Notes under the pieces: generated by a model | What the model saw: the letters and a program-made list of their open reading frames with translations, nothing else | What the model was told of the DNA's origin: nothing | Databases searched by the model: none | Position numbers and translations under genes: made by a program | DNA from: an uncultured Bacteroidia bacterium | GTDB taxonomy: Bacteria > Bacteroidota > Bacteroidia > Bacteroidales > UBA932 | Assembly: GCA_902789435.1 (NCBI GenBank) | Contig: CADAOA010000012.1 | Coordinates: forward strand, 1 to 34,325 | Length of the DNA stretch: 34,325 bases | Reading direction: 5' to 3' | Shown: piece by piece, positions 5,071-21,928 of the stretch | Layout: each line of letters opens with the position of its first letter | How positions within the stretch are numbered: the first letter of the stretch is position 1

Positions 5071-5110
5071 CTTCTTTTCTCTTTAATTAAAAACATAAAC
5101 AACAAAATGA

Positions 5111-5230
5111 CTAGAGGTCTCCTCCCTCCTCCAGCCCCGGTTGTTCAAATGTGCCGGATTGGCAGACAAAAGCTTCAAATTGAAAACTCAATACCTTAAT
5201 CTTAGGTGAATCATAAAGTTGCTTTTTCAT
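5111..5230 (-). CDS. 39-residue small protein upstream of the surface lipoprotein
   Basis: A complete reading frame from the ATG at 5228-5230 to the TAG at 5111-5113. It begins MKKQLYDSPKIKVLSF, continues with FEAFVCQSG and ends in an acidic, glycine-rich tail (EQPGLEEGGDL). Short peptides with this plan (MKK, a Y-x-x-P-x-I-x-V core, a Cys-Gln/Ser-Gly turn and an acidic tail) are a type I recall just upstream of fimbrillin- and BspA-like lipoprotein genes in Bacteroidales. It lies 40 nt before the lipoprotein start, inside that gene's leader and downstream of its promoter. It has no signal peptide. It could be a translated regulatory leader peptide or a stable microprotein; the function is unknown. 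Confidence 0.7.
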   Translation of the reverse strand: MKKQLYDSPKIKVLSFQFEAFVCQSGTFEQPGLEEGGDL

Positions 5231-5285
5231 ATATCCCCGTTGATATTAAAATAGATTGAATTTTACTTCCAAATATTAACTCACT

Positions 5286-5325
5286 GATTTTTAGGCAGAA
5301 TAGGCTCACTTTGAACCTAAAAATC
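5286..5325 (-). promoter_or_regulatory. Leader hairpin / operator dyad
   Basis: A perfect 10-bp inverted repeat: GATTTTTAGG at 5286-5295 and CCTAAAAATC at 5316-5325, 20 nt apart. The upstream arm coincides with the transcription start expected from the promoter at 5329-5360, so the RNA would begin with this stem. It may be a DNA operator, a 5'-stabilising hairpin or an RNA switch. It is too short to be an invertible promoter segment. Confidence 0.5.
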
Positions 5326-5328
5326 GTG

Positions 5329-5360
5329 CAAATTTAATACTTTCTTTTAAAAATATCAAT
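5329..5360 (-). promoter_or_regulatory. Promoter of the small protein / surface lipoprotein operon
   Basis: On the minus strand, ATTG (5357-5360), a 20-nt spacer and TAAATTTG (5329-5336). The -7 box matches TAnnTTTG completely and the -33 box matches TTTG in three of four positions. Transcription would start near 5322, about 90 nt before the 39-codon gene. Confidence 0.65.
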
Positions 5361-5381
5361 CTCAGCATCTAGATGCAAAAT

Positions 5382-5413
5382 ACCGTCCAACTTTTCAGGA
5401 GAAGTCGGACGGT
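5382..5413 (-). terminator. Hairpin terminator of the nine-gene operon
   Basis: Arms ACCGTCCAACTTTTC (5382-5396) and GAGAAGTCGGACGGT (5399-5413) pair almost completely, allowing G-U pairs, around a very short loop. On the minus strand the stem is followed by ATTTTG, a modest U-tract. It lies about 50 nt past the stop of the M20 peptidase gene and just before the next promoter. Confidence 0.7.
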
Positions 5414-5461
5414 GTTATTCAATAATCTTTTGTCGGCGGTATTCTGCCGCAAGTGATAATT

Positions 5462-6808
5462 CTAGTAGTATTTGTAGAAGAGGGCGATGGATTCCATTCC
5501 GCCGAAGAACTGCTTGAGAAGGTAGCTCTCGTTAGGGGAATGGATGGTGTCTCTTTCAAGGCCGAATCCCATCAGCAGAGGGTCTGTGCCCAGGATCTTC
5601 TGCATATCAGCCAGGACAGCGATGCTTCCGCCGCCACGGCTTGGAACAGGCTCTATGCCCAGAACTTCCTTCATGGCCTTTGAAGCGGCCTGGAAGGCAG
5701 GGGAGGTGATTGGGATCAGGAAGCCGTTTCCGCCTTCTTTCTCCTCTACCTTAACTTTGACGTATTTAGGGGCGATAGCCAGGAAATGCTGTTTGAAGAG
5801 CTTGGTTATCTTGGCACTGTCCTGGTTAGGAACGAGCCTCATCGATATCTTGGCGTGGGCTGTGGATGGAAGGACGGTCTTGGCGCCTTCTCCTGTATAG
5901 CCGCCCCAGATTCCGCAAACGTCCAGGCAAGGACGGATACCGGTTCTCTCGAGGGTGGTGTAGCCCTTTTCTCCCTTGACTTCCTTTATGCCGAGGAATT
6001 TCTTGTACTCGTTGAGGTTGAAAGGAGCCCTGGCAAGTTGGGCGCGGTCTGCCTTGCTGAGGTTGACCACATCGTCATAGAAGCCTTTTACCTTGACCTT
6101 GCCGTTTTTGTCGATCAGCGATGAAATCATATCGCAGAGGACATTGATAGGGTTGGCGACAGCTCCGCCGTAGTGGCCGGAGTGGAGGTCCTTGTTAGGG
6201 CCGGTGACGGTAACTTCCAGATAGGCCAGGCCTCTCATTCCGCAGTTGATGGAAGGGACTTTCTCGCTGATCATGGTGGTGTCGGAGACAAGGATCACGT
6301 CACTGGCGAGCATTTTCTTGTTCTTCTTCACCCAGGCAGGAAGGGACGGGCTTCCGATTTCCTCCTCGCCCTCGAAGATGAATTTTACGTTATGCTTGAG
6401 CTGCTTGGTCTTTACAAGATATTCAAAAGCCTTGATGTGCATGAACAGCTGGCCCTTGTCGTCGTTGGCGCCTCTTCCCCAGATAGCCCCGTCGTGAATC
6501 TCGGGCTCGAAAGGATTGGAGTTCCACTTCTCCAGAGGTTCGGCAGGCTGGACATCATAGTGACCGTAAACCATAACGGTCTTGGCCTTAGGGTCTATCA
6601 TTTTCTGGCCGAAGACTACAGGGTTGCCGGCTGTCGGATAAACGTCGGCCTTGTCTGCACCGGCCTTTTTAAGCAATTCAACGAGTCTTTTGGCGCATTT
6701 AAGCATATCTGCCTTGTGCTCTTTCTTGGCGCTTATTGAAGGGATTCTCAGGAGAGAGAACAGTTCTTCGAAGAAACGGTCTTTGTTCTGTTCGATGTAT
6801 TGTTTCAT
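5462..6808 (-). CDS. M20 family (CNDP-like) dipeptidase
   Basis: 448 residues from the ATG at 6806-6808 (MKQYIEQNKD). A start 13 codons upstream would overlap the preceding gene, and MKQYIEQ is the usual beginning of this family. M20 metal-site motifs are present in order: VMVYGHYDVQPA (His and Asp ligands), GRGANDDKGQ (bridging Asp), EGEEEIGSP (catalytic base Glu plus ligand Glu), HSGHYGG (dimerisation-domain His) and a C-terminal DTIHSPNE (ligand His). These predict a cytosolic two-metal dipeptidase of the carnosinase-like type. No signal peptide is seen. It is the last gene of the minus-strand run, 26 nt after DUF5686. A role in releasing an amino acid from an N-acyl or peptide product is possible, but it may simply be a housekeeping rider. 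Confidence 0.92.
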   Translation of the reverse strand: MKQYIEQNKDRFFEELFSLLRIPSISAKKEHKADMLKCAKRLVELLKKAGADKADVYPTAGNPVVFGQKMIDPKAKTVMVYGHYDVQPAEPLEKWNSNPFEPEIHDGAIWGRGANDDKGQLFMHIKAFEYLVKTKQLKHNVKFIFEGEEEIGSPSLPAWVKKNKKMLASDVILVSDTTMISEKVPSINCGMRGLAYLEVTVTGPNKDLHSGHYGGAVANPINVLCDMISSLIDKNGKVKVKGFYDDVVNLSKADRAQLARAPFNLNEYKKFLGIKEVKGEKGYTTLERTGIRPCLDVCGIWGGYTGEGAKTVLPSTAHAKISMRLVPNQDSAKITKLFKQHFLAIAPKYVKVKVEEKEGGNGFLIPITSPAFQAASKAMKEVLGIEPVPSRGGGSIAVLADMQKILGTDPLLMGFGLERDTIHSPNESYLLKQFFGGMESIALFYKYY

Positions 6809-6834
6809 ATTTGAAGTTTTTATGTTTAGTCTTG

Positions 6835-9453
6835 TTAGAAGGCCCATTCGAAACCGAAATTAACGGCGGCCCTGTGGTTTTTCTTGACCTTTACGCCATC
6901 TTCTATCTTGAAGCGGTGAGTCATTCTCCAGAAGACATCTACGCGGAATACCCTGAAGATATTGGTCACGCCAACACCCATTTCCACATAAGGTTTTCTC
7001 AGAGAGCTCATGCCTTCAGGGAAGAGCAGGCGGGCTTCCATTCCCTCGTATTTTGCTCCAGGGCCGGTTCCCATGATGGTGCTGGAAGGATTGCCGATCT
7101 TTCCGTCGGTGATACCGTTGTTAACCTTTGACAGGGTGCCGTAGCCGGCTTTCAGGGTGAAGACCTCTCTCCACTGCAGGCGTTTCATGACAGGGATCTT
7201 GCCGAGGAAGAAACCTCTGAAATTATGCTCGTAGAACAGGGTGGTCCAGGTATCGGACGCAAACTCGTAGAAGTCCATGCAGGCAAAGGAACTCTTGTCC
7301 AGGAAATATGTGCCGTTTCCTTCGTGGAGTTTGAGGAAAGGATATGGAACCTTGCCCACGATCTTTCCGCCGGTAAGATGGAACTTGGATGTTCCGAACG
7401 GCGGCAGAGGCAGGGTGTAGTCCACGGTAGCTTCCGCGCGGAAAAATCCGAAGTCATTGTGGCTCATTCCCTTGGCCGCTCCCACAAGGTCTATGGTAAC
7501 TACTGGATAGTGGGTAAGGACATAGATCTTGTCAAAAGTTCCGCGTGTAACCGTTTCGTCCCAGGAGAATCGGGCGGTATAATGCAGCTGGTTGGAAGAA
7601 ACGCTGGTTACGTGGATGCTGTCCGGAGTGAACATAGGCACATAGCGGTTGGAGTAGACCCTGCGGCTTTCCACACCGATACTGTTATTGAATCCCTCGT
7701 TCCACTCGTGGACATAGGAAATGGAATAATCGTTGACAGGACTCATCCTCTCGCTGTTGCCCTTGTTGAGCAGGGAGGACATGATGTTGCCTTCCGTAAG
7801 GGCATCCGTACCTCTTCCCATCTGGACAAGGTCCCTGCTCGCACTGACAACGATTTTACGGGTAGGCAGATTGCTGAACATGTATTCGGCCATTATCTTT
7901 CCCTTGAAGTCCTTGTCCTTGGTTCCATATGCTATGTGGCCGGAAAGCCTTATCTTCTTGCTGAAATCTTCCGTCGTCCTTCCTCCGAACTGGAATCTCG
8001 CACCTTCCAGGTTGTTGAAGCTGAACATCTTGAAATATGGTCCAACTCCAAAGTACTTGAAATCGTAATATCCGTTGACAAAGGTGTTTACGATAGTGTA
8101 GAGATTGTGATACAGTGGAACGTTCTTGATGGAATCCACCATCTTGTAGATATTGCTTTCCTTCTGGCTGAGGGCATAGGGGCGGTTTTGCTGCCAGTAG
8201 GATTCATCGTCGACAAGAGGGTTCTTTCCCATCACCACATTGCTCATCAGTTTGGAGACGCTGTCAGGCATCTGCCGGTCGAATCTCGGATCGATATAGT
8301 CGCATTGCCTCCTTCCGAGGAAAGACATTAGCTTGGAGGAATCCCTCATGGTTACCGAGAAGTCCGCATACATCTTATCCTGCTTGAAGAACCATAGGGA
8401 ATCCTTACCCTGGTAAGAGCCTTTTCCTCCAACCAGCTGGTATTCGGAATCCAGGACAAGATCCCTGATCCAGTTGACGTTGCTGCCTTTCTTGAGCTTT
8501 ACGTGGATTTCCCTTACAGCCCAGTCTTGGGCGTCAATCCTCATTTCTCCGTCGAAAGTCGGGGAGGAAACCAGTTTGGACGGATGGAAACGGATGTGAT
8601 AGGTTTTCCTTCCGTCTATGTTGAGGCTGTCGATGAGGAAATAGTCGTAATAAACATTAGGGCCACTTACCGGAGACGGGATCTGAACATTGAACAGGTT
8701 GATGAAGTCATCGTAGAAATTGGTGCGGATGTGCATATTGCCGGTAAACTGGGCAAATGTTGCCTCATCCTTTACTCCCGATATGCGGCTGGCGTCTATG
8801 ATTTCCTTGGTCAGGGCCGGATCTTTCTGCTTGTAGAACCTGGAGTTGTTCTCCGAGATCATAATCGGCAGATAGGGTTTTCCGCTGATGACGGAAGTGT
8901 CCATATAGTCGAACACAAAACCGAAGTTTCTCCTCAGCAGCTTGTTCTTTATCTGTGTGTCCGCGTTGACAAGGTCCAGTTCCATCTTTGTGTAGAGCCG
9001 GCACTCGTAGCGGTCTCTCTCTTCCGGATTATTGATTTTCTTGGCCCTTTCTATGTTGGAAAGGATCCAGCGGATATAGCGGTAGTCCGGCTTTACCACA
9101 ATCTGGTTGAGTAGGTTTTCTTCGATTTTCAGGGCAATGTCAAGCTGGTTGAATGCTCCTTTCTTAATCTGCTTTTCCTGCGGGATGTAGCTCAACATCT
9201 CGAATCTGAGCAAATCTACGGTAAGGTCTCTGGTTTCCAGAGTGTAATATCCGTCCAGGTCTGTGGACACACCGATAGTGGTGCCCTTGAAGTAAACGTT
9301 GGCAAACGGAAGGCCTTCTCCTGTATCGGCGTCGGTGACGCGACCCTTGACTCTTGTGGTCTGTGCATCGGCAAGGGATGGCAAAAGCAAAACGGCCGCC
9401 AGCAGAAGAGCCGGCAGACGTTTCAAGATTCCCCGATTGCCTGATATCAGCAT
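6835..9453 (-). CDS. DUF5686 outer-membrane protein with carboxypeptidase-like domain
   Basis: 872 residues. There is a signal peptide to about residue 30 (LADAQTT), then a carboxypeptidase D regulatory-like beta-sandwich at about 32-115 (VKGRVTDADTGEGLPFANV). A long DUF5686 region follows, ending in alternating hydrophobic/aromatic strands and a terminal FGFEWAF. An aromatic last residue is the usual signal of a BAM-inserted beta-barrel. This plan is common in Bacteroidota and the function is unproven; it resembles TonB-receptor-like or surface-assembly proteins without a plug domain. It starts 12 nt after the LolA-like gene and is followed at 26 nt by the peptidase. In the operon it would be the outer-membrane end of an export route, which is my inference from order and location. 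Confidence 0.88.
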   Translation of the reverse strand: MLISGNRGILKRLPALLLAAVLLLPSLADAQTTRVKGRVTDADTGEGLPFANVYFKGTTIGVSTDLDGYYTLETRDLTVDLLRFEMLSYIPQEKQIKKGAFNQLDIALKIEENLLNQIVVKPDYRYIRWILSNIERAKKINNPEERDRYECRLYTKMELDLVNADTQIKNKLLRRNFGFVFDYMDTSVISGKPYLPIMISENNSRFYKQKDPALTKEIIDASRISGVKDEATFAQFTGNMHIRTNFYDDFINLFNVQIPSPVSGPNVYYDYFLIDSLNIDGRKTYHIRFHPSKLVSSPTFDGEMRIDAQDWAVREIHVKLKKGSNVNWIRDLVLDSEYQLVGGKGSYQGKDSLWFFKQDKMYADFSVTMRDSSKLMSFLGRRQCDYIDPRFDRQMPDSVSKLMSNVVMGKNPLVDDESYWQQNRPYALSQKESNIYKMVDSIKNVPLYHNLYTIVNTFVNGYYDFKYFGVGPYFKMFSFNNLEGARFQFGGRTTEDFSKKIRLSGHIAYGTKDKDFKGKIMAEYMFSNLPTRKIVVSASRDLVQMGRGTDALTEGNIMSSLLNKGNSERMSPVNDYSISYVHEWNEGFNNSIGVESRRVYSNRYVPMFTPDSIHVTSVSSNQLHYTARFSWDETVTRGTFDKIYVLTHYPVVTIDLVGAAKGMSHNDFGFFRAEATVDYTLPLPPFGTSKFHLTGGKIVGKVPYPFLKLHEGNGTYFLDKSSFACMDFYEFASDTWTTLFYEHNFRGFFLGKIPVMKRLQWREVFTLKAGYGTLSKVNNGITDGKIGNPSSTIMGTGPGAKYEGMEARLLFPEGMSSLRKPYVEMGVGVTNIFRVFRVDVFWRMTHRFKIEDGVKVKKNHRAAVNFGFEWAF

Positions 9454-9465
9454 TCCGTCAAGAGT

Positions 9466-10107
9466 CTAATAGTTGAACAGTTCGTCCGGAATCATTCCGT
9501 TGAATTCCTTGTCCGGAGTGTTCCAGGTGGTGTTGTTCCCGTTTTTCTCGGTGAGGGTGAAAATGCACAGGGTAAGGTCCTTCTTGCTGTAGGAGGCGGT
9601 CAGGTGGTTCCACCTTCCCTTTGCGTTCTTGGCCACATCCATATCAAAGACATAATATTTGTCTGTAGTGGACATCTTGATTTCAGATTTGTTGAGCTGG
9701 GCGGCCTTTTCCAATTCTCCCTTGATGCAGTTGATAAGGGTTCCCCTGAGAATGTTCATGTTGTGGTCAGTCTTGGTGTTGAAGACGTTACGGGTTCCGC
9801 CGCTTATCATCGTGACCTTGTCTCCGTTTATGATCAGCTGGTTTTCCTTGTCCTTATGCTTTGTCCTGTCGAGAGTGAGCTGCATGGAAAGCTTTTCGGA
9901 AGAACGGACGAAATACATCTTGCCCTTGCTCTCCACGTTCTTTTTCATTCCCTTCATAGTCTTTACCTGGGAGCAGGTGGAGACTATGGTCTTGTAGGAC
10001 TCGTTCTTTTTCTGGATGTCTGCCATGACTTTTTCCTTGCTCTGCGACAAAGCGGCTGCGCTTGTCAGAAGGCAGCAGGAAAGTATAGCGATAAATAATT
10101 TCTTCAT
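9466..10107 (-). CDS. LolA-like periplasmic carrier
   Basis: 213 residues with a signal peptide (MKKLFIAILSCCLLTSAAALSQS). The mature part has the LolA/LolB-like pattern: an amphipathic N-terminal helix (about 25-50), then strands FVRSSEKLSMQLTL, QLIINGDKVTMISGG and, near residue 155, KYYVFDMDV. Such half-barrel proteins bind acyl chains in a hydrophobic groove and carry them across the periplasm. LolA-like members recur beside MMPL exporters in aryl-polyene, flexirubin and related lipid clusters. Here it follows the oxidoreductase by 21 nt and precedes DUF5686 by 12 nt, which fits a shuttle between the inner-membrane exporter and the outer membrane. The housekeeping LolA would normally be elsewhere. 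The cargo is not known. Confidence 0.75.
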   Translation of the reverse strand: MKKLFIAILSCCLLTSAAALSQSKEKVMADIQKKNESYKTIVSTCSQVKTMKGMKKNVESKGKMYFVRSSEKLSMQLTLDRTKHKDKENQLIINGDKVTMISGGTRNVFNTKTDHNMNILRGTLINCIKGELEKAAQLNKSEIKMSTTDKYYVFDMDVAKNAKGRWNHLTASYSKKDLTLCIFTLTEKNGNNTTWNTPDKEFNGMIPDELFNY

Positions 10108-10128
10108 AACGGTGCAAATTTACTCCAT

Positions 10129-11622
10129 TTACTCCAAAAAAGATACCACCTGTTCTTTCCCCAGGATTTCCAGGCATGTCAGGAGAGAGGTAAGTGTGAC
10201 TCCAAGGATTCCGTGGAGATTGAGGTTTTGTCCTGTAAAGTACAGGTTCCCGAACGGGGTCTTCGGGGTCAACAGCGTCTGGGTCAGGTTGTTGCAGTCT
10301 TTCCTGATGCCATATGCCGTACCCCTGACGGCTCCGGTGTAATTCAAATATGTCAGCGGAGTGCTGGTATAGAAAGTTTCTATGGATTCCTTCAGGTCGG
10401 GGAAGAAATTCTGCGCCATGGAGATGCACTCCTCCGCTTTTCTTGCCTTGAAAGCCAGATACTCTTCTCCGCGACGGTTAGGAAGGGTGCCGGTCCACTT
10501 CTCGACCTCGGAATAGTTCATCGGGGTGAGGATGTCCATCAGAGTGGCGTAATCTCCGCTTTCAGGAACCTGCTGGCTGATGAGAGCCCCCTTCACTTTG
10601 CCTCCAGATTGATTCTCCGCGATGTTCCACACGGATTCCAGATCCGGAGAGTAACAGTAGGAATTGCGGTTAAGGTAAGGGATACGTCCCTCCTTGAGCT
10701 TTATGTTAACCGTGAAAAAGCCGCAGGTTTGTTCCAGGCGGTTTATCCTGCGGCGGAAAACCGGCCTTATGTTAGGACTGTCTTTTAGAAGTTCCAGGGT
10801 AAGTTGCGGGCTGAGGTCGGAGACGAAAAGATCTGCGCTCAAGCTTTCCCTGCATCCCTTGTGGAGGATTTCTGCTCCGAATACAAGTCCGTCCTTTTCT
10901 TTCAGGGATATTACCTGTGCGTTTGCCAGTACGGTTCCGCCCATTTTCCTGATGCCGTCTGCAAGCGTGTCTGCAATCAGGGAGCCTCTTCCCTTTAGTT
11001 TCCAGGCACTTTGGATGAAAGAGCTGTTGATCTGGGCGAATGTATAGAGTGGAAGGGTATCTTTCCTGAGTTCCAGTTTCAGGGAAGCCCCGCTCAGTAT
11101 GTCTCTAAGAAGGGGATCGCTTATGCTGCGGCAGAGATAACCGTAAGCGCTTTTCTCAAACAGGGAATTTATGGAGTCATATCCGCCGGATTCCTTGTAT
11201 ATGGGATCAGCGATCCCTTTGCCCACATTCTCCAGGAAGGAGGAATAGTTCTCCAGCTCCATCCGGTTTTCCGGGAAAATCGCTGAGAGAGATTGGGCAA
11301 ATTGTTTGTAGCCGTTAGCCAGGGGATAGGTTCTGCCTTTGAGGAGAATCTGGTCAAAACATTCGGTATCAAGTTGATGCCAAGGAAGTTCCATAAGGCC
11401 GAGATGGCGGAATATCCTTTCCAGTATCTGGCCTTTTCCGAGTGCTCCGACATAATGGAATCCCGTGTCGAATTCGTCCTTTCCCCTGCGGAAAGTCTGA
11501 AGGCATCCTCCAAGTGCGGCGTTCTTTTCCAGGACGCAGACATTCATACCGCATTTGGCGAGTATGAAGGCGCATTCCAGACCTCCCAGTCCGCTGCCTA
11601 ATATGACGACATCGTATTTCAT
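10129..11622 (-). CDS. RetSat/CrtI-like FAD-dependent oxidoreductase
   Basis: 497 residues with an N-terminal Rossmann FAD motif (GSGLGG, residues 9-14, closed by VLEKNAALGG), an FDTGFHYVGAL element and a C-terminal FAD-binding TGQNLNLHGILG. The combination of FDTG-x-HY with TGQN near the end points to the retinol saturase / carotenoid desaturase-isomerase group. These enzymes reduce, desaturate or isomerise conjugated polyenes at a membrane surface. There is no signal peptide, so it acts from the cytosol. Its start overlaps the exporter stop in an ATGA junction, so the two are almost certainly cotranslated. In this operon it would adjust double bonds of an acyl or polyene chain. Without phytoene synthase nearby, a carotenoid substrate is less likely. 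The direction of the reaction is unknown. Confidence 0.85.
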   Translation of the reverse strand: MKYDVVILGSGLGGLECAFILAKCGMNVCVLEKNAALGGCLQTFRRGKDEFDTGFHYVGALGKGQILERIFRHLGLMELPWHQLDTECFDQILLKGRTYPLANGYKQFAQSLSAIFPENRMELENYSSFLENVGKGIADPIYKESGGYDSINSLFEKSAYGYLCRSISDPLLRDILSGASLKLELRKDTLPLYTFAQINSSFIQSAWKLKGRGSLIADTLADGIRKMGGTVLANAQVISLKEKDGLVFGAEILHKGCRESLSADLFVSDLSPQLTLELLKDSPNIRPVFRRRINRLEQTCGFFTVNIKLKEGRIPYLNRNSYCYSPDLESVWNIAENQSGGKVKGALISQQVPESGDYATLMDILTPMNYSEVEKWTGTLPNRRGEEYLAFKARKAEECISMAQNFFPDLKESIETFYTSTPLTYLNYTGAVRGTAYGIRKDCNNLTQTLLTPKTPFGNLYFTGQNLNLHGILGVTLTSLLTCLEILGKEQVVSFLE

Positions 11623-14132
11623 CTATGTCTGAAGGCCTCCCATTTGTAAAACAGGTAAGGCTGCAGGGTGAAAGTAATCACGATGGTGGAAATCATTCCG
11701 GCCAAGGTTGACAAACCTATTGAGGAAATGGCAGGATGCACGGCAAACAACAGGCTGCTCACTGCCAGGATCAGCATTACGGCCGAGAAGAATATTGCGC
11801 TGCGGTGATACTTCAGGAGTTCTTCCCTTTCCTTGCCCTTGATAAGGCCGTCCATCACGAAGATGCTGTAATCCACTCCCATTCCGAAGATGAAGGTGGA
11901 GATGACCATGTTGATCAGGTTGAATTCTATGTTGAACAGTCTCATGAAGCCAAGTACCATAAACCAGCTCATGAACATCGGCAGGAAAGCTATGATGGCA
12001 TGGACGATGTTCCTGAATGCCAGCAGCAGGATCACCAGGACGAACAGGGAGGAAATCAGCAGCACCGTGTTGAAATCGTGTTCCATGATTTCCAGCATGT
12101 TGGTTGTGTAGAAAAGAGGATCTATCACTACAACCCCGTGGGAGAGGTCCTTGTTCTTGTCCTTTCCACCGGCGGCAAGGATTTCGGAAGCCCTCCACAG
12201 GCTGTCAGCATCCTTTGCCTTAAGGGTGGTCAGTACAAGGTAGTTTCCGTCCTCGTTCTTCTCCATGAAATTGCCCATTATCTCGTTTGGAACTGTTCCT
12301 CCTCCGAATACGTCCACAGGAGAATAGTCTTTTTCCAGAGCCTCCCAGAAAGGCTCGAACATCTCCGCTTCAAAGCCGTTGCTATCAGCGGCGGCAGCGG
12401 TCATTTTCTTTACCTGGTCTTTTTTCTGCGGCGTGAAGTATGCGTTCCAGAGGCGGATCCTTTCGGTCTGCTCGGTGGACGGGAGAAGAAGGTTGGAAGC
12501 AGAGTTGAACGAGGAAATTATACCCCTGTCTTGAAGGGCCTGGCATTCCTCGGCCAGAATCTGGTTCAGTGCCAGGGCGCTGTCCAGGTCCCTGGAATGA
12601 ACCGCTATGTGTTTTGTCTGAAGGCCACCCTCGAACTTGCTGTCATAGACCTCCTCCGCGACTATCAGTTTAGGATCGCTGTATGCCAGATGGAAGAGAT
12701 CAGTATCGAAGTTGGCCCGTCCTCTGGTGAAGATTACGCTGAGTACAAACAGGATGACAACCAGCACGATGACCCAACCGCTCTTATGGTAAGGATGGGT
12801 GGTGATTTTCTCGATAGCCTCGAAGGCTTTGTCGTTTTTCTTTCCAGTGGAGTTCTTGAAGAACTGCGGAAGGAAGAATAATGCCGCCAGCGTGGTTCCT
12901 ACCATTACCAGCGAGGCCATCAGGCCGAAATCGCTGAGGAGTGAAGATTTGGTGAAAACCAGTCCAAGCAGGGAGCCTACGGTGGTGATGCATCCAAGAG
13001 CCACCGGCTTTGCCTGGTCCTGAATGACCTGCTCAACCGGAGCAATGTACTTGTGGTGGGTGATGATGTGTATGCAGTAGCTGAGAGCCACTCCGATCAC
13101 GATGCATCCTATGCCCAAGGCAATGAAGGACATCTGTCCCTGTATCAGATAAACCGCGGCTATGGCTGCAACCACTCCCCAGACAAGAGGCATGAGCATA
13201 TAGAAGAGAGTATCCTTTGTCCTGAAACAATATCCGATTATCAGGATAATGATAATGAGGGCGATGCTGACAGTCAGCACCAGGTCTTTCTTTATACGCC
13301 TTGCGGTATAGACGCTTTTGGTGGATTTTCCGCAGATGAGAACCTCCACCTGCGGGCAAACTTTGTAAAGCTCCTGGGCTTCTTCCTCGATCAGGCTGAT
13401 AAGATGGGATCCGGACTTGCTGTCCATTGCCCGGAAAGCCGGAGATACATAGGCAATGGCAACGGTGCTGTCTGAACTCATCAGATGGAAATCCGTCAGG
13501 GTAAGTTTTCCGTTATCCTTGTGGGCGGAACCGTCAGATAGGTCTCCACCGGCGGAAGCGAGGCTTTTCATAGCCAGGCTCCTGAATGCCAGCGGATCCT
13601 TGCACACTATGTCGTACCACATCCCGGAAGGGTCGTCGGCAAGCAGGTCTGCATTCTCCTGCATCAGGGAATCCAGGCTCTTGGCGTTCAGTAAATTGTC
13701 CAGGGACGGGTAGAAAGTGCTGTCCAGAAAACACGGGGCATTGTCCAGGATCAGGAAGGCTCCGTCTTCCAGCAAAGAAGGGTCTATCCTGTTGAAGACG
13801 TCTTCCATATAGCCGCCCTTGTCGTGAGCCTTTATGGAATCGCAGAGCCTGTCGGAGGCGGAAACAAGCGTGTCCACCATATCCTGCGGGGACATGGTGC
13901 TATCCGTTATCCTGAGTTCCACGAAAATCTTGTCCTTGACTCTCAGTTTGTCAAAGACATATCTCACGCCGCTGTTTTCTTCCGTTGCCGGGAGGAGTTT
14001 GGTTATATCTTCCTCATAGTACATCCGGCCGGCCAGAAAAGCCAGCAGGACAAAACTGCCAAGGAGGATTATATAGAAAACCGCACGCCTCTTCCTGAAA
14101 AAACGGTAGACGGCCAGAGCCAGACGAGTCAT
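11619..14132 (-). CDS. MMPL/HAE3-type RND lipid exporter
   Basis: 837 residues with the duplicated RND plan: one N-terminal membrane segment (about 17-37), a large periplasmic loop, a bundle of about five segments (about 278-425), a second periplasmic loop and a final bundle (about 685-835). The second half carries GMGVDYSIFVMDG, the family's proton-relay Asp. The equivalent place in the first half reads GVALSYCIHII, with Ser in place of Asp. MMPL proteins export lipids, glycolipids or polyenes from the inner membrane with the proton gradient. The gene abuts the ACP gene upstream and shares an ATGA with the oxidoreductase downstream. That coupling strongly suggests it exports the product of this operon. 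A partner porin is absent; LolA-like and DUF5686 proteins follow instead. Confidence 0.9.
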   Translation of the reverse strand: MTRLALAVYRFFRKRRAVFYIILLGSFVLLAFLAGRMYYEEDITKLLPATEENSGVRYVFDKLRVKDKIFVELRITDSTMSPQDMVDTLVSASDRLCDSIKAHDKGGYMEDVFNRIDPSLLEDGAFLILDNAPCFLDSTFYPSLDNLLNAKSLDSLMQENADLLADDPSGMWYDIVCKDPLAFRSLAMKSLASAGGDLSDGSAHKDNGKLTLTDFHLMSSDSTVAIAYVSPAFRAMDSKSGSHLISLIEEEAQELYKVCPQVEVLICGKSTKSVYTARRIKKDLVLTVSIALIIIILIIGYCFRTKDTLFYMLMPLVWGVVAAIAAVYLIQGQMSFIALGIGCIVIGVALSYCIHIITHHKYIAPVEQVIQDQAKPVALGCITTVGSLLGLVFTKSSLLSDFGLMASLVMVGTTLAALFFLPQFFKNSTGKKNDKAFEAIEKITTHPYHKSGWVIVLVVILFVLSVIFTRGRANFDTDLFHLAYSDPKLIVAEEVYDSKFEGGLQTKHIAVHSRDLDSALALNQILAEECQALQDRGIISSFNSASNLLLPSTEQTERIRLWNAYFTPQKKDQVKKMTAAAADSNGFEAEMFEPFWEALEKDYSPVDVFGGGTVPNEIMGNFMEKNEDGNYLVLTTLKAKDADSLWRASEILAAGGKDKNKDLSHGVVVIDPLFYTTNMLEIMEHDFNTVLLISSLFVLVILLLAFRNIVHAIIAFLPMFMSWFMVLGFMRLFNIEFNLINMVISTFIFGMGVDYSIFVMDGLIKGKEREELLKYHRSAIFFSAVMLILAVSSLLFAVHPAISSIGLSTLAGMISTIVITFTLQPYLFYKWEAFRHR

Positions 14133-14381
14133 TTATTTTTCGCTGATTCTCTCGAAGAGGAAGTCGTAGAGTTGACTGAAGTTGGTTGTTTTCATCAAGT
14201 CGGTACCCTTGATCTTGATGTCGAAAGTTTCTTCAATCAGGGCGACAAGGTCTACCAGTGAAAGACTGTCGAGATCAAGGGTTTTCTTGATGTCTGCATC
14301 CGGAGTGATTACCTCCTTTTCAACCTCGAATTCTTCTGACAGAATGTCAATGGTCTTAGCGATCAGTTCTTCTTTAGTCAT
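14133..14381 (-). CDS. Acyl carrier protein, pathway-dedicated
   Basis: 82 residues, acidic and helical, with the phosphopantetheine attachment motif LDLDSLSLVDL; Ser39 is the expected carrier residue. Helices I-IV can be followed (about 3-18, 39-52, 58-63 and 67-79). The motif and C-terminus differ from the housekeeping AcpP (GADSLDTVEL), and the gene is not next to a fabF-rnc pair. I therefore read it as a specialised ACP that holds the growing or finished acyl chain for this operon. It ends with TAA directly next to the exporter's ATG and begins 21 nt after the ketosynthase stop. Activation needs a phosphopantetheinyl transferase, and none is in the window. Confidence 0.93.
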   Translation of the reverse strand: MTKEELIAKTIDILSEEFEVEKEVITPDADIKKTLDLDSLSLVDLVALIEETFDIKIKGTDLMKTTNFSQLYDFLFERISEK

Positions 14382-14402
14382 ATTATTTGTTTTAGTTTAT
14401 TT

Positions 14403-15623
14403 TCAAAGGTTTTTTATCACGAGTGTGGAGTTGGTTCCGCCGAATCCGAATGAATTGGAAAGGAATGTGTTGAAAATCCTCTCGATTCTCTTCGCCGGAA
14501 TGTTGAGTTTGGCGGAGTCTTCGTCCGGTTCCTCGAAGTTGATGTTTGCTCCGATGAAACCGTTTTTCATCATCAGGATGGAGTAGATCACCTCGCTGGC
14601 TCCAGCCATCCACATTTCGTGGCCGGTCTGGCTCTTGGTGCTGGTTACAGGCGGCATGTTGTCTCCGAATACCTGATAAATAGCCTTGGCCTCGTTCTGG
14701 TCTCCGACCATAGTGCTGGTGGCGTGGGCATTTATGTAACCAATCTCTGAAGGAGTCAGCCCTGAGTGGGCAAGCGCCATTTTCAGAGACCTTGCAGGAC
14801 CGTCTACGTTAGGAACCGAGATATGGTCTCCGTTGGATGAGAAACCGTATCCAAGCACCTCGGCGATGATAGGGGCACCTCTTTTTACAGCGCTCTCATA
14901 ATCTTCCAGTATGACAGTGGCAGCTCCGCCGGACGGAACCAGTCCGTCTCTGTGACGGTCGAAAGGACGGGAAGCTTTTTCAGGCTCGCTTTCTCTCTTG
15001 GAGAACGCGCTGATACCGTCAAAACTGCATACGGAATAAGGGTTGGTTTCCTGGGCTCCGCCACATATCACCATATCCTGAAGTCCGTTCTGGATAAGCA
15101 TGGATCCCCAGCCGATGGAATGGCTTCCGCTGGCGCAGGCTCCTGAAACCGTGAGGTTTATTCCCTTAAGTTTGAATATGCAGGAAAGGTTCATCGTGAC
15201 GGTGGAGTTCATACTCTTGAAAATTCCTCCACTGCCTATCAGGGACGTGTCTCCCTTCAGCCTCATGGCATCCACGCTGGCTACAACAGGTTCCGCGCTG
15301 GAGTCGTTTCCGTAGAGAAGGCCCACTTCGTGACTGTCCAGCCAATCCTGGTCTATGCGTGCGTCCCTGAGCGCATCCGCAGTGGCGCAATATGCGTACA
15401 AAGCCTGTTCAGGCATGTAAACCCTTTGGTTACGGCTGAGGATTCCCTTGAGATTAGGTACTTCCACATATCCGGTAAGAGCGGACAAGAATCCCATTTC
15501 CTTTCTGACGGGATCGAACACGATGCCGCTTTTTCCGTTGTAGAGAGAATCCCTGACCTCGTCCAAAGTCTTACCGAGGCAGGAGTAGATTCCCATTCCT
15601 GTTATGACAACTCTTCTTTTCAT
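14403..15623 (-). CDS. Beta-ketoacyl-ACP synthase (FabB/F type)
   Basis: 406 residues from the ATG at 15621-15623 (MKRRVVITGMG). It shares an ATGA with the acyltransferase stop, which settles the start against an upstream alternative. The thiolase-fold catalytic set is complete: Cys163 in VSGACASG, His300 in NAHATST and His335 in TGHEMWMAG. It should therefore perform decarboxylative Claisen condensation of acyl chains with malonyl-ACP, rather than act as an inactive chain-length factor. The C-terminal SNSFGFGGTN is typical of the family. The GHEMWMAGASE form resembles FabB-like enzymes. Only one ketosynthase is present, and no ketoreductase or dehydratase is encoded. Either a single elongation step occurs or the remaining steps are supplied by general fatty-acid synthesis. 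Confidence 0.93.
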   Translation of the reverse strand: MKRRVVITGMGIYSCLGKTLDEVRDSLYNGKSGIVFDPVRKEMGFLSALTGYVEVPNLKGILSRNQRVYMPEQALYAYCATADALRDARIDQDWLDSHEVGLLYGNDSSAEPVVASVDAMRLKGDTSLIGSGGIFKSMNSTVTMNLSCIFKLKGINLTVSGACASGSHSIGWGSMLIQNGLQDMVICGGAQETNPYSVCSFDGISAFSKRESEPEKASRPFDRHRDGLVPSGGAATVILEDYESAVKRGAPIIAEVLGYGFSSNGDHISVPNVDGPARSLKMALAHSGLTPSEIGYINAHATSTMVGDQNEAKAIYQVFGDNMPPVTSTKSQTGHEMWMAGASEVIYSILMMKNGFIGANINFEEPDEDSAKLNIPAKRIERIFNTFLSNSFGFGGTNSTLVIKNL

Positions 15624-16984
15624 ATCTTGAACAAAGACCACAGACGGTCTTCCAGTTTTTCGCTATCTTTCCTTAAAGTGCGCAATTTAGCAATTTTTGA
15701 TTTCTTATGAAACGCCAGAAGCCTCAATTCCTCCTTGACGGTATCCCACCATTCGGTATAATACCAGCAGAACAGTGCCAGCGGTGGCATCATAAGGAGG
15801 TAAAGCACAGCCATATAGATTGTAAGGAAACACCATACGACTATAAATGAGATCAGGGCGAAAAGCGGAATAGTTATCACCGCATTAACTCCAAGAAGGA
15901 AGGATGATGAAAGCATTTTGTCTTTCACCCTCTTTGTCAGACGTTTCGGAATGTGGTACAGAAGCAGGTTCGGCCACAGGGAGAAAATCCACAGAGGGAA
16001 AAGGAGCACAAGGGCTGCTATCTTCAGTATCGTTGAACCCCAGGAAACCTTCTTGTTCAGAGACTTGAATTCAAGTCCGCATTCCTGGAGGTCTTCTCTC
16101 AGCTTTTCAGCCTCTCCGTAAACGGATTCCCTCGTTCCGTCTTCCAGGGCTCCCAGGCTGGCAACGAATTCTTTCTCGACCTGAAGCTTTTCAGGAAGGA
16201 TTCTATATGGCTTCTTGCGGATGAAGGCAAAGGATTTTCCGTAATTTACCCTGAGGAAATCAATGGCCGGATAGTTGTCCAGATCCTGGATGTCCAGCAT
16301 CATGGAAGAAATAGCTTCTCTTACCACCTGGTTGACTTCTCTCATCGCCGTCCTGGGCTTTTCCTTGTAGAGTTCGTAGTAAGGCTTCAAAGAAACCGGG
16401 TCGGAAAACATAACGCACATCTCCCGCCTCATCCCGAAGTAGTTGGTATAGTGGTTGGCTACCGGAAGGATGAAGATCTCCTGTTCGAATCCGGTTTGTT
16501 CGGCCGCCTTGAAGGCCATTGTGGTGTATCCCATAGTGAAATGGCCAAGGTATCTCTTGTCCTGATGGCCGGCTTCAGGGAAAATCATGACACTCTGTCC
16601 GTGTTTGAGAAGATGGTAGCTTTCGTCAAAGGACGCGCTGTTCTTTCCGACATCTTCCATGCCTTCGTGGTCCATCCTGAAAGCTGGCATAAGGCCAAGG
16701 AACCTCAGGTATTTCTCAAGCACTTTGCTGACGGCGAAGATATCCGCCCTGGCCCAGAAGAAAGGTCTTCTTCCAGGACCCTTGAAGGCCAGCATAACGG
16801 CTATGGCGTCCACCAGGCAGTTCTGGTGGTTGGACGCAATCACCTGGGCGTTACCCTCCGGAAGAATCTTTTCATCTCCGATGCGATAAACTTTCCTGTA
16901 CAGGAAATGGTTGAAGAGCAGGCGGATGAATTCCTTGAACCACATGTAGTATAGTCCGCCCTTGAATGTTTTCCTGAATTCCAT
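15620..16984 (-). CDS. PlsC-like acyltransferase with C-terminal membrane domain
   Basis: 454 residues. The acyltransferase block covers about residues 25-220: SNHQNCLVDA is the catalytic His/Asp motif and FPEAGHQD stands in the place of the usual FPEGT substrate motif. The His-Asp spacing is five residues rather than the common four, a form I recall in GPT2/AAK14816-like members. After a charged linker there are two or three membrane segments between about 320 and 410, then a basic helical tail. Relatives move acyl groups from acyl-ACP or acyl-CoA to glycerol phosphate, lysophospholipid or another headgroup. It follows the serine hydrolase by 12 nt and overlaps the ketosynthase by 4 nt. I infer that it attaches the chain made on the ACP to a polar acceptor at the inner membrane. 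Confidence 0.88.
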   Translation of the reverse strand: MEFRKTFKGGLYYMWFKEFIRLLFNHFLYRKVYRIGDEKILPEGNAQVIASNHQNCLVDAIAVMLAFKGPGRRPFFWARADIFAVSKVLEKYLRFLGLMPAFRMDHEGMEDVGKNSASFDESYHLLKHGQSVMIFPEAGHQDKRYLGHFTMGYTTMAFKAAEQTGFEQEIFILPVANHYTNYFGMRREMCVMFSDPVSLKPYYELYKEKPRTAMREVNQVVREAISSMMLDIQDLDNYPAIDFLRVNYGKSFAFIRKKPYRILPEKLQVEKEFVASLGALEDGTRESVYGEAEKLREDLQECGLEFKSLNKKVSWGSTILKIAALVLLFPLWIFSLWPNLLLYHIPKRLTKRVKDKMLSSSFLLGVNAVITIPLFALISFIVVWCFLTIYMAVLYLLMMPPLALFCWYYTEWWDTVKEELRLLAFHKKSKIAKLRTLRKDSEKLEDRLWSLFKI

Positions 16985-16996
16985 CTGCTGATGATT

Positions 16997-18190
16997 TTAT
17001 TCTTGCTGAATCCAATCCTGGATATCCATTGAACCTTCTTTGAAGAACAGGCCGAGAACCTTGTTGGTGATGTCGTGGCCAGCCCCGCTGTTTGCAAAGT
17101 AAACCAGGGTTTTCTTCTGGCTTGGGATTATCACGAACAGGGCCTTGGTGTTGCCGTTGTCTCCCCAGTGCCAGAGAACCCTGCCGTAGTTAGGATTCTC
17201 CTCTATTCCGATTCCCAACCCCCAGAAGATGCTTTTCTTCTCGTCCACCGGCCTTACCTTTGGAGGGAACTGCGTTGCAGGTCCGCTGCAAGGAGTTATC
17301 ATCAGAGCGTGGCTGGTCTGGGAGAGACCCTTTCCGTCCATTACGGCACGGATGAAGTTGGAATAGTCTATGGCGTTGGTCCTGAGGGTGTAGGCAACGT
17401 TCTGCCTTGGGAACTGCCTTACGCCTTGGCTTTCTCCGCTGCGTCTTACGGATGCGGTGGTTATACCTTCGAATTCCGGAATCCACTCATAGGAAGAAAG
17501 AGGCATGTCCAGAGGTTCGAACACATATTCCTTTGCTATTGACTGGATGTCCTTTCCCTTGATCGCCTCAACGGCTCTCTGAAGGAAAGCGTAGCCCTCT
17601 CCGCTATACCCGAAGATGGAATCAACAGGGAAGGTGAAATTGATAGGAGCGGTCGGCCACTCGTCAGAAGACGGAGACGCAGCCCAGTCGTCTATACCAC
17701 TGCGGTGCATAAGTATCAGCCTGGCAGTCAGCTTCTTTGCCATATCCTTGTCCACGAAGCGGTCTATATCTGTATACTCGTAAAGCGGACGGTCAATGTC
17801 AATTTCTCCCTTGTCGTACATCTTGAGCACTATATAAGCGAAAACCACCTTGCTCAGCGATGCCGCCTGGAACACAGCTTCCTTTTCATAATCTGCCTTG
17901 CCGGTCTCCTTGTAGCTGAAGCTGGCGGAGTCTACGGCAACAGGCTCTTGAGTTGACCAAGGGGTTACTCCAACCTGGCAGTAAACACTGTCTGAAGGTT
18001 CGGTGTACTTGAGCTGGATCATCGGTATGTTGGCTTCTCTGATTATGGTCAGCAGAGAATCCTCTAAGGCGGACTGTCTTTGTTCCATGGCTTTTTCTTT
18101 GTTGTTGCAGCCTGCAAGGTGGAAGGAGAGAGTCATTGCCACCAGAATCATACCGGCTCCGTATAAAAATTTTGTTAATTTGTTTGTCAT
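16997..18190 (-). CDS. Beta-lactamase-fold serine hydrolase lipoprotein
   Basis: 397 residues from the ATG at 18188-18190, which gives an SPII signal ending LAGC (Cys28). A start 13 codons upstream lacks this shape. The class C beta-lactamase / penicillin-binding-like set is present: SLSK at about 111-114 (nucleophile Ser111), YSGEGY near 207 (in place of YxN) and HWGDNG near 352 (HxG in place of KTG). This combination fits the esterase / D-aminopeptidase / transesterase branch better than a true beta-lactamase. It is anchored at a membrane and faces the periplasm. As first gene of the operon it is divergent from a BlaI/BlaR1-like pair, the place a regulated beta-lactamase would hold. It may cleave or transfer the acyl product, or act on peptidoglycan-like amides. 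Confidence 0.87.
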   Translation of the reverse strand: MTNKLTKFLYGAGMILVAMTLSFHLAGCNNKEKAMEQRQSALEDSLLTIIREANIPMIQLKYTEPSDSVYCQVGVTPWSTQEPVAVDSASFSYKETGKADYEKEAVFQAASLSKVVFAYIVLKMYDKGEIDIDRPLYEYTDIDRFVDKDMAKKLTARLILMHRSGIDDWAASPSSDEWPTAPINFTFPVDSIFGYSGEGYAFLQRAVEAIKGKDIQSIAKEYVFEPLDMPLSSYEWIPEFEGITTASVRRSGESQGVRQFPRQNVAYTLRTNAIDYSNFIRAVMDGKGLSQTSHALMITPCSGPATQFPPKVRPVDEKKSIFWGLGIGIEENPNYGRVLWHWGDNGNTKALFVIIPSQKKTLVYFANSGAGHDITNKVLGLFFKEGSMDIQDWIQQE

Positions 18191-18340: not shown

Positions 18341-18360
18341 AACCAGCTGTCCGATTGACG

Positions 18361-18726
18361 ATGAAACAGAAACTGACTGCAAAAGAAGAGATGCTGATGA
18401 ACATATTCTGGGCTCATGAACCCTTGTTTATCAGAGATTTAATCAGTTATATCCCAGATCCCAAGCCCCATTACAACACGGTGGCCACGCTTGTGAAGTT
18501 CCTGGAGGAAAAAGGTTTTCTGGAAAGGGAACCGATGGCAAACACTTTCCGCTATAAGGTAAAAATAAGTGAAAGCCAGTACCACGGGGATACCGTTTCC
18601 GAGGTAGTTGCCCGCTATTATGACAATTCTTATCTGCGTCTGGTTTCCCAGTTCGTGGAGGAAGACAAAATGAACCTGCAGGAGCTCAAAAACCTCATTG
18701 CCCAAATAGAAAAGAACAAGAAATGA
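18361..18726 (+). CDS. BlaI/MecI/CopY-family repressor
   Basis: 121 residues from the ATG at 18361 (MKQKLTAKEEMLMNIFW). A TTG two codons upstream is less likely. The N-terminal winged helix is clear: the first helix, LTAKEEMLMNIFW, is followed by HYNTVATLVKFLEEKGFLERE (recognition helix) and a wing ending FRYKVKIS. The C-terminal helix (about 70-118) should form the dimer. In the classical system the repressor is cleaved when a BlaR1-type sensor protease is activated. The gene overlaps the M56 protease gene by ATGA, the standard pairing. Its promoter carries a candidate self-operator. Targets beyond its own operon are not proven, but the divergent lipid operon is the obvious candidate. Confidence 0.92.
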   Translation: MKQKLTAKEEMLMNIFWAHEPLFIRDLISYIPDPKPHYNTVATLVKFLEEKGFLEREPMANTFRYKVKISESQYHGDTVSEVVARYYDNSYLRLVSQFVEEDKMNLQELKNLIAQIEKNKK

Positions 18727-21193: not shown

Positions 21194-21928
21194 CTACAGG
21201 ATGATACCTACAGAAATATAGCTGAGTTTCGGACCGTACTCCTTCTGGAAGAGTGAGTGCGGAGCATACTTCACATACAGAGCCACTTCCGGCAGACCAA
21301 TGATCAGACGGTACTCTGGAGTGAACTTCTTGGTCTTCCAGTGCTTGATCTTGAGTTTTTCCTTTGAGCTGCCGATCTTGTACTTGCTGACGCTCTTTGC
21401 GGAGAAGTTATAGTTGCCCATCAGGTCAAATCCAAGCTTCAGGTCATCCATAACCTTTATCTGATAACCAAGTGAAGCTCCGAGCTCGAATACATCCAGC
21501 CTGGACTTTCTCTTGCTGTGATTATTGGCATCTGGATTCATATCTTCAAAAGGAATGGCTCTATAAACACCACTTTCAACACCTGGTAATGGAAAGCGGT
21601 AAGTATTTGCAATAATATTCTTGTGGCGGGTCTTGAAGAACATGGTTCCGAAGTTCAGGGCAAAGTCAAACCTGTGCACTTCAGTCGGTTTGTAACTGAG
21701 ATTAACGATGTCAAATCCGAGTTCCCAGGACTTGAAAGCCTTCAAACCCATCTCCTTTGGAGAATCCAGAGCTGTAAGGGAACCAAAATAGAAATTCTCT
21801 CCCACTGCCAAGTTGAACTCAGATGTCTTGTCATCATCTGATACGGGAAGTACGTCAACATCTACAATCTGTGCCTGGAGACTTGCAAACGCAAAGGCAG
21901 CCAGAACGGTCAAAAACAGTTTTTTCAT
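21194..21928 (-). CDS. Small outer-membrane beta-barrel-like protein
   Basis: 244 residues with a signal peptide to about residue 19 (LAAFAFASLQAQ). The mature part alternates hydrophobic and polar residues in strand-like stretches with many aromatic girdle residues: KSWELGFDIVNLSY, FDFALNFGTMFF, FELGASLGYQI, LKLGFDLMGNYNF, EYRLIIGLPEVALYV. Basic loops lie between them. This matches a small (about 8-10 strand) outer-membrane barrel of the OmpW/PorT-like sort, but I cannot name a family and no substrate is evident. The last residue is Leu rather than the more usual Phe/Tyr. It has its own good promoter (21951-21980) and stands alone between convergent and terminator-separated neighbours. Confidence 0.78.
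   Translation of the reverse strand: MKKLFLTVLAAFAFASLQAQIVDVDVLPVSDDDKTSEFNLAVGENFYFGSLTALDSPKEMGLKAFKSWELGFDIVNLSYKPTEVHRFDFALNFGTMFFKTRHKNIIANTYRFPLPGVESGVYRAIPFEDMNPDANNHSKRKSRLDVFELGASLGYQIKVMDDLKLGFDLMGNYNFSAKSVSKYKIGSSKEKLKIKHWKTKKFTPEYRLIIGLPEVALYVKYAPHSLFQKEYGPKLSYISVGIIL

Follow-up and report, generated by a model that had tools for sequence, protein, structure and literature searches.

What can an operon make that joins one ketosynthase (KS), one acyl carrier protein (ACP) and an acyltransferase to genes for export? We asked this of a 34,325-nucleotide stretch of DNA (the window; positions 1 to 34,325 of contig CADAOA010000012.1, GenBank assembly GCA_902789435.1) from an uncultured Bacteroidales bacterium. 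Nine genes within positions 5382-18190, all on the minus strand, had been described in a first-pass annotation as a possible lipid or polyene assembly-and-export system, and this is what they look like, being related to the aryl polyene (APE) and flexirubin clusters without being identical to them. We propose that the operon is locus A, one arm of a polyene-lipid assembly and export pathway of the flexirubin/APE kind that lacks a tyrosine ammonia-lyase (TAL) and is split over at least four contigs of its genome. Our probability for this reading is about 0.48, just short of even odds.

A nine-gene operon related to flexirubin and aryl polyene clusters

The nine genes form a genuine operon. In order of transcription they encode a serine hydrolase lipoprotein of the beta-lactamase fold (16997-18190; PF00144, 5.7e-26; lipobox LAGC by eye), a PlsC-like membrane acyltransferase (15620-16984; PF01553, 2.5e-14), a FabB-like KS that we call KS1 (14403-15623; PF00109 and PF02801), an ApeF-like ACP (14133-14381; PF00550), an ApeM-like MMPL/RND exporter (11619-14132; PF03176, 3.4e-17), a CrtD/RetSat-like FAD oxidoreductase (10129-11622; TIGR02733, 5.7e-37, under the cut-off of that model), a LolA-fold periplasmic carrier (9466-10107), a DUF5686 protein with a CarboxypepD_reg domain (6835-9453; PF18939, 5.1e-54) and an M20 dipeptidase (5462-6808; NF006053, 518 bits, above the cut-off of 441). 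Coordinates and translations bear out the compact arrangement first described. The serine hydrolase, with its ATG at 18190, is separated from PlsC by 12 nt; PlsC and KS1 (ATG at 15623) share an ATGA overlap, as do MMPL and CrtD (11622-11619); the ACP stop directly adjoins the MMPL start (14133/14132); and gaps of 21, 21 and 12 nt separate KS1 from ACP, CrtD from LolA and LolA from DUF5686. The last junction is a 26-nt gap if M20 starts at 6808 and a 13-nt overlap if it starts at 6847. A terminator had also been noted at the operon end, where we find an intrinsic-terminator-like hairpin on the minus strand (5413-5382) with a 12-pair stem followed by a T-rich tail; two terminator-like sites occur in 5071-5600, compared with a mean of 0.4 after shuffling.

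Pfam and NCBIfam domains support the families named at first pass, except that the LolA-like protein has no Pfam match and reaches 78 bits with the NCBIfam model LolA2_flexi (NF053544), for which the cut-off is 125. Its predicted structure (predicted local distance difference test score, pLDDT, of 89) has the LolA fold, the best Foldseek match being a solved LolA (E 3.7e-12). KS1 retains its catalytic cysteine and two histidines, which are invariant across 8 aligned sequences, and the ACP has the serine of the DSL motif. In a Protein Data Bank (PDB) search the closest solved relatives of KS1 were ketoacyl-ACP synthase I (FabB) chains, at 310 bits, and among E. coli proteins the KS1 profile scored FabB at 390, FabF at 323 and ApeR at 289 bits. 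The ACP group profile scored higher with E. coli ApeF (66 bits) than with AcpP (48 bits), and the MMPL group profile matched ApeM at 111. PlsC-type acyltransferases have a canonical H-x4-D motif; the window protein has H-x5-D (NHQNCLVD), and a PDB search with it gave no match at E 0.1. The structure model of the DUF5686 protein was too poor for use (pLDDT 57). This protein, which presumably resides in the outer membrane, belongs to a family named in no open-licence PMC paper found by our literature search. Judged by their sequences, the seven genes from PlsC to DUF5686 look like machinery of the flexirubin/aryl polyene kind.

Several of the missing functions are probably encoded elsewhere in the genome

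The operon contains neither a ketoreductase (KR) nor a second KS, and the first-pass annotation had supposed that intermediates must come from primary fatty-acid synthesis and undergo one elongation. The genome as a whole does not support the need for this supply route. Contig C19 (locus B) encodes a RapZ-C-terminal kinase-like protein, a nucleotidyltransferase, a FlxB-type ketoreductase (380 bits, cut-off 340), an LpxL-like acyltransferase, an ACP, a KS of another sub-family (KS2), a chain-length-factor (CLF)-like protein with weak matches (PF13723, 28 bits; ApeC, 29 bits), EamA, a second LolA (103 bits with the LolA2 model, cut-off 125), a family 2 glycosyltransferase (GT2) and MMPL. Contig C2 (locus C) encodes a 576-aa KS-like protein, an ACP-like protein (DSL motif by eye) and an AMP ligase, with a separate FabF-like gene further along, and contig C3 carries a dehydratase-like gene that scores 155 bits with our DHa dehydratase profile and has no NCBIfam match. 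Given these genes, a scheme with one elongation is possible without being needed. We also rejected a self-contained nine-gene pathway in this organism, because KR, KS2 and AMP ligase were found in trans.

The genome thus holds, in trans, a KS-CLF pair (KS2 and the CLF-like protein on C19) and a FabB-like second KS (KS1 in the window, its only KS1 match), together with the two ACPs and the KR of the aryl polyene set, the one DHa-like gene on C3, and MMPL and LolA-like export genes. No FlxA-type TAL was found in it; the sole candidate is HutH-like, scoring 578 bits as histidine ammonia-lyase and 320 as FlxA (cut-off 700). Genome-wide searches gave no orthologue of DarB or of the FabA-like dehydratase DHb, and radical S-adenosylmethionine (SAM) genes are absent from the nine operon genes and from those genes of loci B and C that were run against family models.

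The pieces of these loci appear to move or be exchanged between sites in related genomes. In the window species, G097 and G119, the KS-like gene of locus C shares a separate contig with ACP and AMP ligase (regions L039 7979-11224, L090 and L091), and in G108 and G074 a 38-39% identical KS-like gene lies inside locus B with ACP and ligase adjoining. The locus B MMPL of G119 (L088 12967-16281) is 1104 aa long with a C-terminal PlsC-type match (TIGR00530, below cut-off), apparently a fusion of exporter and acyltransferase. At locus B in six genomes including that of the window, an open reading frame (L038 2607-4043) combines an APH/AmgK-like phosphotransferase domain with a RapZ C-terminal domain.

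Two ketosynthase sub-types differ in their gene neighbours

We built a KS phylogeny from 96 KS1 open reading frames (102 rows); L107 and L191 were dropped as duplicates, so that the split KS of G097 lies outside the tree, and the further removal of four outgroups and of seven rows that were near-identical or long-branched left 91 rows. The window KS falls in a 46-sequence clade with support of 100/100, recovered in 200 of 200 bootstrap trees and nested inside KSs that mostly adjoin TAL. KS1 therefore groups with flexirubin KSs and not with housekeeping FabF, in line with the first-pass annotation. Members of the clade come from Prevotella, Paludibacteraceae, Tannerella, Bacteroidaceae and other Bacteroidales.

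Gene neighbours were counted with self-built profiles on the same strand from -6.5 to +9 kb around each KS, a range that itself partly accounts for the absence of the distal genes (MMPL, KS2, ligase) of the TAL-linked type I loci. Among the 25 clade loci with at least 2 kb upstream and at least 8 kb downstream, CrtD and ACP each occurred in 22, DHa in 15, PlsC in 13, MMPL, KR and LolA in 12 each, DUF5686 in 8 (Prevotella among them) and TAL in one; LpxL, KS2 and CLF were found in none. Equally well-covered loci outside the clade (n = 43) had TAL in 40, LpxL in 43, KR in 41 and CrtD in 12, with no PlsC or DUF5686. Ignoring coverage, PlsC lay near the KS in 25 of the 46 clade loci. In 7 of 43 type II (CrtD-linked) loci, Prevotella included, the usual place of PlsC directly upstream of the KS is taken by a protein of about 380 aa (L171 8838-9980, for example); the one member scanned had no NCBIfam match. 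PlsC matches were present in 88 family genomes, with long regions examined for part of them, and 34 lower-scoring PlsC regions (L193-L226) had no KS1 by the self-built profiles; these may be other PlsC-like genes or cut-off loci.

Across a family set of 149 genomes (the counts that follow were read by hand), 28 carry a KS at least 73% identical to that of the window; G027, a clade member at 67%, was not counted among them. TAL was matched at E no higher than 1e-100 in 16 of the 28 and not found in 12. It adjoins the KS1-type gene in G140, G091 and G113 (in G113 by coordinates only) and lies elsewhere in the other 13. Four of the 12 TAL-less genomes, G086, G019, G080 and G069, have no KS2 match either. 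Two KS1-type genes occur in G007, G093, G126, G081, G146 and G027, and the second one of G007 stands beside TAL in a flexirubin-type cluster; this genome holds both sub-types on separate contigs. In G103 a type II KS-CrtD-KR run is divergent beside a methyltransferase, ACP, LpxL, dehydratase (DH), KS-like gene, ACP and KS2.

Homologues of loci A and B are contiguous in G140, where one run reads PlsC-KS1-ACP-DH-DH-MMPL-CrtD-FlxB-LolA-TAL-ACP-LpxL-radical SAM-DH-thioesterase-KS-ACP-KS/CLF and the next piece continues with a deacetylase, LolA, GT2 and MMPL. It contains a single KS1 and a single FlxB, and its TAL is FlxA (848 bits, cut-off 700). From its gene content this cluster may represent the parent system. 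These comparisons suggest that the CrtD-linked sub-type is separable from the TAL-linked system, yet that the two have come together again in at least two genera. The radical SAM protein of the G140 cluster (L052 4787-6157) belongs to TIGR04072, a lipid-biosynthesis family labelled 'ladder' (407 bits, cut-off 360).

Putative starter genes alternate within the genus

The AMP ligase of locus C has orthologues in all seven genus genomes that have KS2 and lack TAL (G000, the window's own, and G097, G119, G108, G074, G027 and G061). At E 1e-40 it had no match in any of the three genus genomes with both KS2 and TAL (G003, G140, G045), nor in the two with neither (G086, G130). Its position in G061, G108 and G074 is at the KS2 cluster or next to it. 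This pattern is suggestive, though not significant, of an exchange of AMP ligase for TAL as the starter route within the genus.

A proposed split pathway

The gene content and conservation of the operon, the KS phylogeny, the lack of a FlxA-type TAL in the assembly and the alternation of TAL and ligase within the genus are all features of sequence. For the substrates, step order, product and lipid anchor of the pathway, the lack of an enoyl reductase and the cooperation of loci A, B and C, we infer a scheme from gene families and APE precedent. The AMP ligase of locus C, possibly replacing TAL in this genome, would activate a carboxylic acid and load it onto an ACP, and KS1, together with the paired KS and CLF-like proteins of locus B, would elongate the chain. 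The FlxB-type reductase on C19 and the dehydratase-like protein on C3, acting with no dedicated enoyl reductase, would leave conjugated double bonds. At what is the least understood step, the CrtD/RetSat-like flavoprotein may isomerise, desaturate or saturate these bonds. The PlsC-like enzyme would then esterify the chain onto a membrane lipid, MMPL would extract that lipid, the LolA-like protein would carry it and DUF5686 would receive it at the outer membrane.

How does this compare with known systems? Papers are cited here by PMC number, through excerpts. Those on flexirubins and aryl polyenes give a similar parts list (PMC3992019, PMC8253772, PMC8358021), and ApeR is described as FabB-like and as making shorter polyenes (PMC8358021). 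With the flexirubin (flx/dar) systems of Chitinophaga pinensis and Flavobacterium johnsoniae the window genome shares a homologous KS, FlxB (in trans), a carrier that resembles LolA2 but scores below the model cut-off, MMPL, ACP and a CrtD-like gene, which is present in 12 of 50 loci of the TAL-linked type. Among the best 80 of 560 relatives from named genomes, a sample that favours close relatives, KS1 is about 61-71% identical to TAL-linked KSs of Flavobacterium, Chryseobacterium, Phocaeicola and others. LolA2 and LolB2 occur in flexirubin loci, with a proposed role in flexirubin transport (PMC11885536). The window system differs in that neither a FlxA TAL nor DarB was found, the pathway is split over contigs, the gene order is PlsC-KS-ACP-MMPL-CrtD-LolA-DUF5686 and an AMP ligase may replace TAL.

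The apeA-R cluster (E. coli CFT073, X. doucetiae, A. baumannii) was compared using component profiles built from the window and its relatives, some of them (thioesterase, DHb) from relatives only. Best matches of CFT073 proteins were ApeR to KS1, ApeF to the first ACP, ApeQ to KR, ApeI to DHb, ApeK to thioesterase, ApeL to LolA, ApeM to MMPL, ApeO to KS2 and ApeE to the second ACP, with weak matches of ApeP to DHa (27 bits) and ApeC to CLF (29 bits). In the window genome itself the likeness extends to ApeR, F, Q, L, M, O and E, with C and P weak. Unlike apeA-R, its loci are non-contiguous and have no DHb orthologue, the relation between PlsC and ApeD is very weak (13 bits), FabF and FabG score near ApeR and ApeQ, and CrtD, DUF5686 and M20 lie outside the ape set. 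The first-pass annotation had named a match to an already characterised pathway as grounds for rejecting its reading, and this applies by half: the operon is homologous to the flexirubin/APE machinery, but the TAL feature is not shared.

Flexirubin-type clusters are reported from 5 of 6 analysed Bacteroidetes classes (PMC9248904), and for Prevotella micans an aryl polyene cluster is reported that is still uncharacterised (PMC8549736), again from excerpts. In the open-licence PMC literature, as far as such excerpts reach, we came across no account of a CrtD-linked sub-type that is free of TAL.

Points against the split pathway and alternative explanations

Several observations weigh against the split, TAL-free pathway. 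Kinship of KS1 to ApeR in particular is weak, since E. coli FabF outscores ApeR both with the KS1 profile and in the PDB search (238 vs 224 bits). The aryl-stacking tyrosine of ApeR is isoleucine in the five KS1s compared, TAL-linked and TAL-free alike, and so is no marker of the starter. The KR profile scores E. coli FabG (268 bits) close to ApeQ (282). No DHb orthologue was found, C19 breaks off within its MMPL gene, and genes may be hidden in an assembly that is 90% complete. Cooperation between the separate loci would itself be needed. The KS neighbouring TAL in G140, G091 and G113 means that the sub-type is compatible with aryl starters, and the four TAL-less genomes without KS2 mean that the operon may work alone there. 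The alternation of TAL and ligase over 10 genomes comes down, on the FabF tree, to a single supported contrast and at most three independent ones. Outside the genus, the ligase had no match at E 1e-40 in 20 searched genomes, and G044, G050 and G026 (73-80% complete) have KS2 with neither TAL nor a ligase match.

The strongest alternative, which we nevertheless consider unlikely, is that locus A works by itself as a non-aryl lipid pathway in which a FabB-like KS, a KR and dehydratases work without a KS-CLF pair or aryl starter, building a short polyene or polyunsaturated chain from primary acyl-ACP that is modified by CrtD and placed on a membrane lipid. G086, G019, G080 and G069, with a KS and neither a TAL nor a KS2 match, fit this idea, as do the single run PlsC-KS-ACP-DH-DH-MMPL-CrtD-KR-LolA in G086, the retained DH-DH-KS-CrtD-KR in G080, the separate contigs of the two KS sub-types in G007 and the proximity of KS1 to FabB. 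A precedent comes from the ladderane and anaerobic polyunsaturated fatty acid clusters of anammox bacteria and Desulfotalea psychrophila, where FAS-II-like KS and ACP genes accompany a phytoene-dehydrogenase-like flavoprotein and an anaerobic route to polyunsaturated chains was suggested in the excerpted text of PMC2649909; ladderane-type flavoproteins put in place of phytoene desaturase gave no lycopene (PMC4790861, excerpt). The window operon differs from these clusters in having export genes and in lacking a radical SAM gene. The genome of the window, moreover, has its KR and dehydratase genes outside locus A and KS1 outside locus B, which looks like sharing; TAL stands beside the KS in G140, G091 and G113; and the four genomes are 92-96% complete, leaving their absences uncertain, with the operons of G019 and G069 on short contigs only.

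A little less probable still is that a true aryl polyene continues to be made, TAL having been lost and dietary aromatic acids (p-coumarate, ferulate, hydroxybenzoate) being loaded by the AMP ligase. Plant phenolics are plentiful in the rumen. TAL and ligase exclude one another in 10 of 10 KS2-bearing genus genomes, and the 15 PDB matches of the ligase include a feruloyl-CoA synthetase. It ranks below the best solved matches, a gramicidin-synthase adenylation domain and malonyl-CoA synthetase, which tend to speak against aromatic loading without deciding the substrate, as does the weak score of ApeH with the ligase profile (19 bits). The starter of the E. coli aryl polyene is predicted to be 4-hydroxybenzoate (PMC8253772). 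The KS2-bearing, TAL-less G044, G050 and G026 again have no ligase match. Failure of the ligase pattern outside the genus weakens both this explanation and the split TAL-free pathway, and so does the overlap between the two.

Conservation, selection and passenger genes

In a genus sample of 12 genomes including the window's own, all nine genes occur in the same order in five (G000, G097, G074, G108, G119), and G003 keeps the first eight. Related operons are present in G140 and G086. G027, G045, G061 and G130 have no PlsC match, although G027 has a KS1-ACP-DH-DH-MMPL-CrtD-LolA run. Gene order is thus kept in close relatives, as the first-pass annotation would have it, but not every gene seems to belong to the unit. 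Between the five species that have all nine genes, M20 identity is 95-99.6%, compared with 60-94% for the neighbouring genes, and M20 is not in the G003 operon; this much higher conservation and its absence there make it probably a passenger, outside the function of the pathway. The serine hydrolase, which heads the operon in six genus genomes and was not found before PlsC in G140 or G086, is probably a passenger too. We therefore rejected the nine-gene set as one functional unit.

Ratios of non-synonymous to synonymous substitution rates (dN/dS; Nei-Gojobori, against G119 and G074) were 0.02-0.18 in the 16 of 17 comparisons that had a finite dS, with synonymous sites close to saturation in several and PlsC saturated against G074; M20 gave 0.02-0.03. 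On these sequence comparisons the operon genes appear to be under purifying selection. It is accordingly improbable that the operon is what is left of a flexirubin cluster in decay and yields no product, and simple degeneration was rejected on dN/dS. Orthologues of TAL, DarB and DHb were indeed not found in the genome, and MMPL and CrtD are each split into two frames in G003; the frames are open in the five nine-gene species, and the KS1 clade spans several families. The G003 breaks (L051 1-3699) lie in a single-contig genome and may be decay or sequencing errors. Nor does DarB show loss, which lowers the odds of decay further: it was matched in G119 only, among 13 genomes, so that it may equally have been gained in G119 or lost from the window genome. 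In G119 (L232 9336-17423) the genes that come after a C3-type dehydratase-like gene are LolA, DHb, DarB (571 bits, cut-off 550), DarH (377 bits, cut-off 300) and MMPL, up to a flanking gene that the window genome shares; in the window genome these five genes are not at the matching site (L231 8775-10073). A housekeeping fatty-acid and phospholipid operon (FabF/AcpP/PlsC), as the domain names alone would allow, can be dismissed as highly improbable, since KS1 groups with flexirubin KSs in the trees, a separate FabF-like gene on C2 gives a profile that matches E. coli FabF at 508 bits and the FabF-like matches of KS1 in relatives are 34-38% identical.

Upstream of the operon, on the plus strand at 18355-20000, an M56/BlaR1-like peptidase with a TonB_C domain and a short BlaI-like repressor open reading frame (by eye) are divergent to and adjoin the serine hydrolase. 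In G097, G074, G108 and G119 a gene resembling window 21194-21928 adjoins the first gene of the operon in place of this pair.

Implications for gut Bacteroidales

Beyond this genome, we tentatively suggest, at well below even odds, that the operon represents a separate and widespread class of outer-membrane lipids of gut Bacteroidales, conjugated or polyunsaturated and not started from tyrosine, made by a FabB-like KS with a near-constant CrtD/RetSat partner and delivered by MMPL, LolA2-like and DUF5686 proteins, with some lineages exchanging TAL for an AMP ligase-ACP route. The link between DUF5686 and the KS in Prevotella and in the window's family offers a possible functional setting for DUF5686, a family of unknown function. 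It would be easy to class such clusters as aryl polyenes, and yet the sub-type mostly has no aryl-starter gene alongside, and some of the genomes yielded no KS-CLF pair. Should the product prove to be a polyene lipid that is non-aryl or derived from the diet, the products assigned to clusters of gut and rumen Bacteroidales would need revision.

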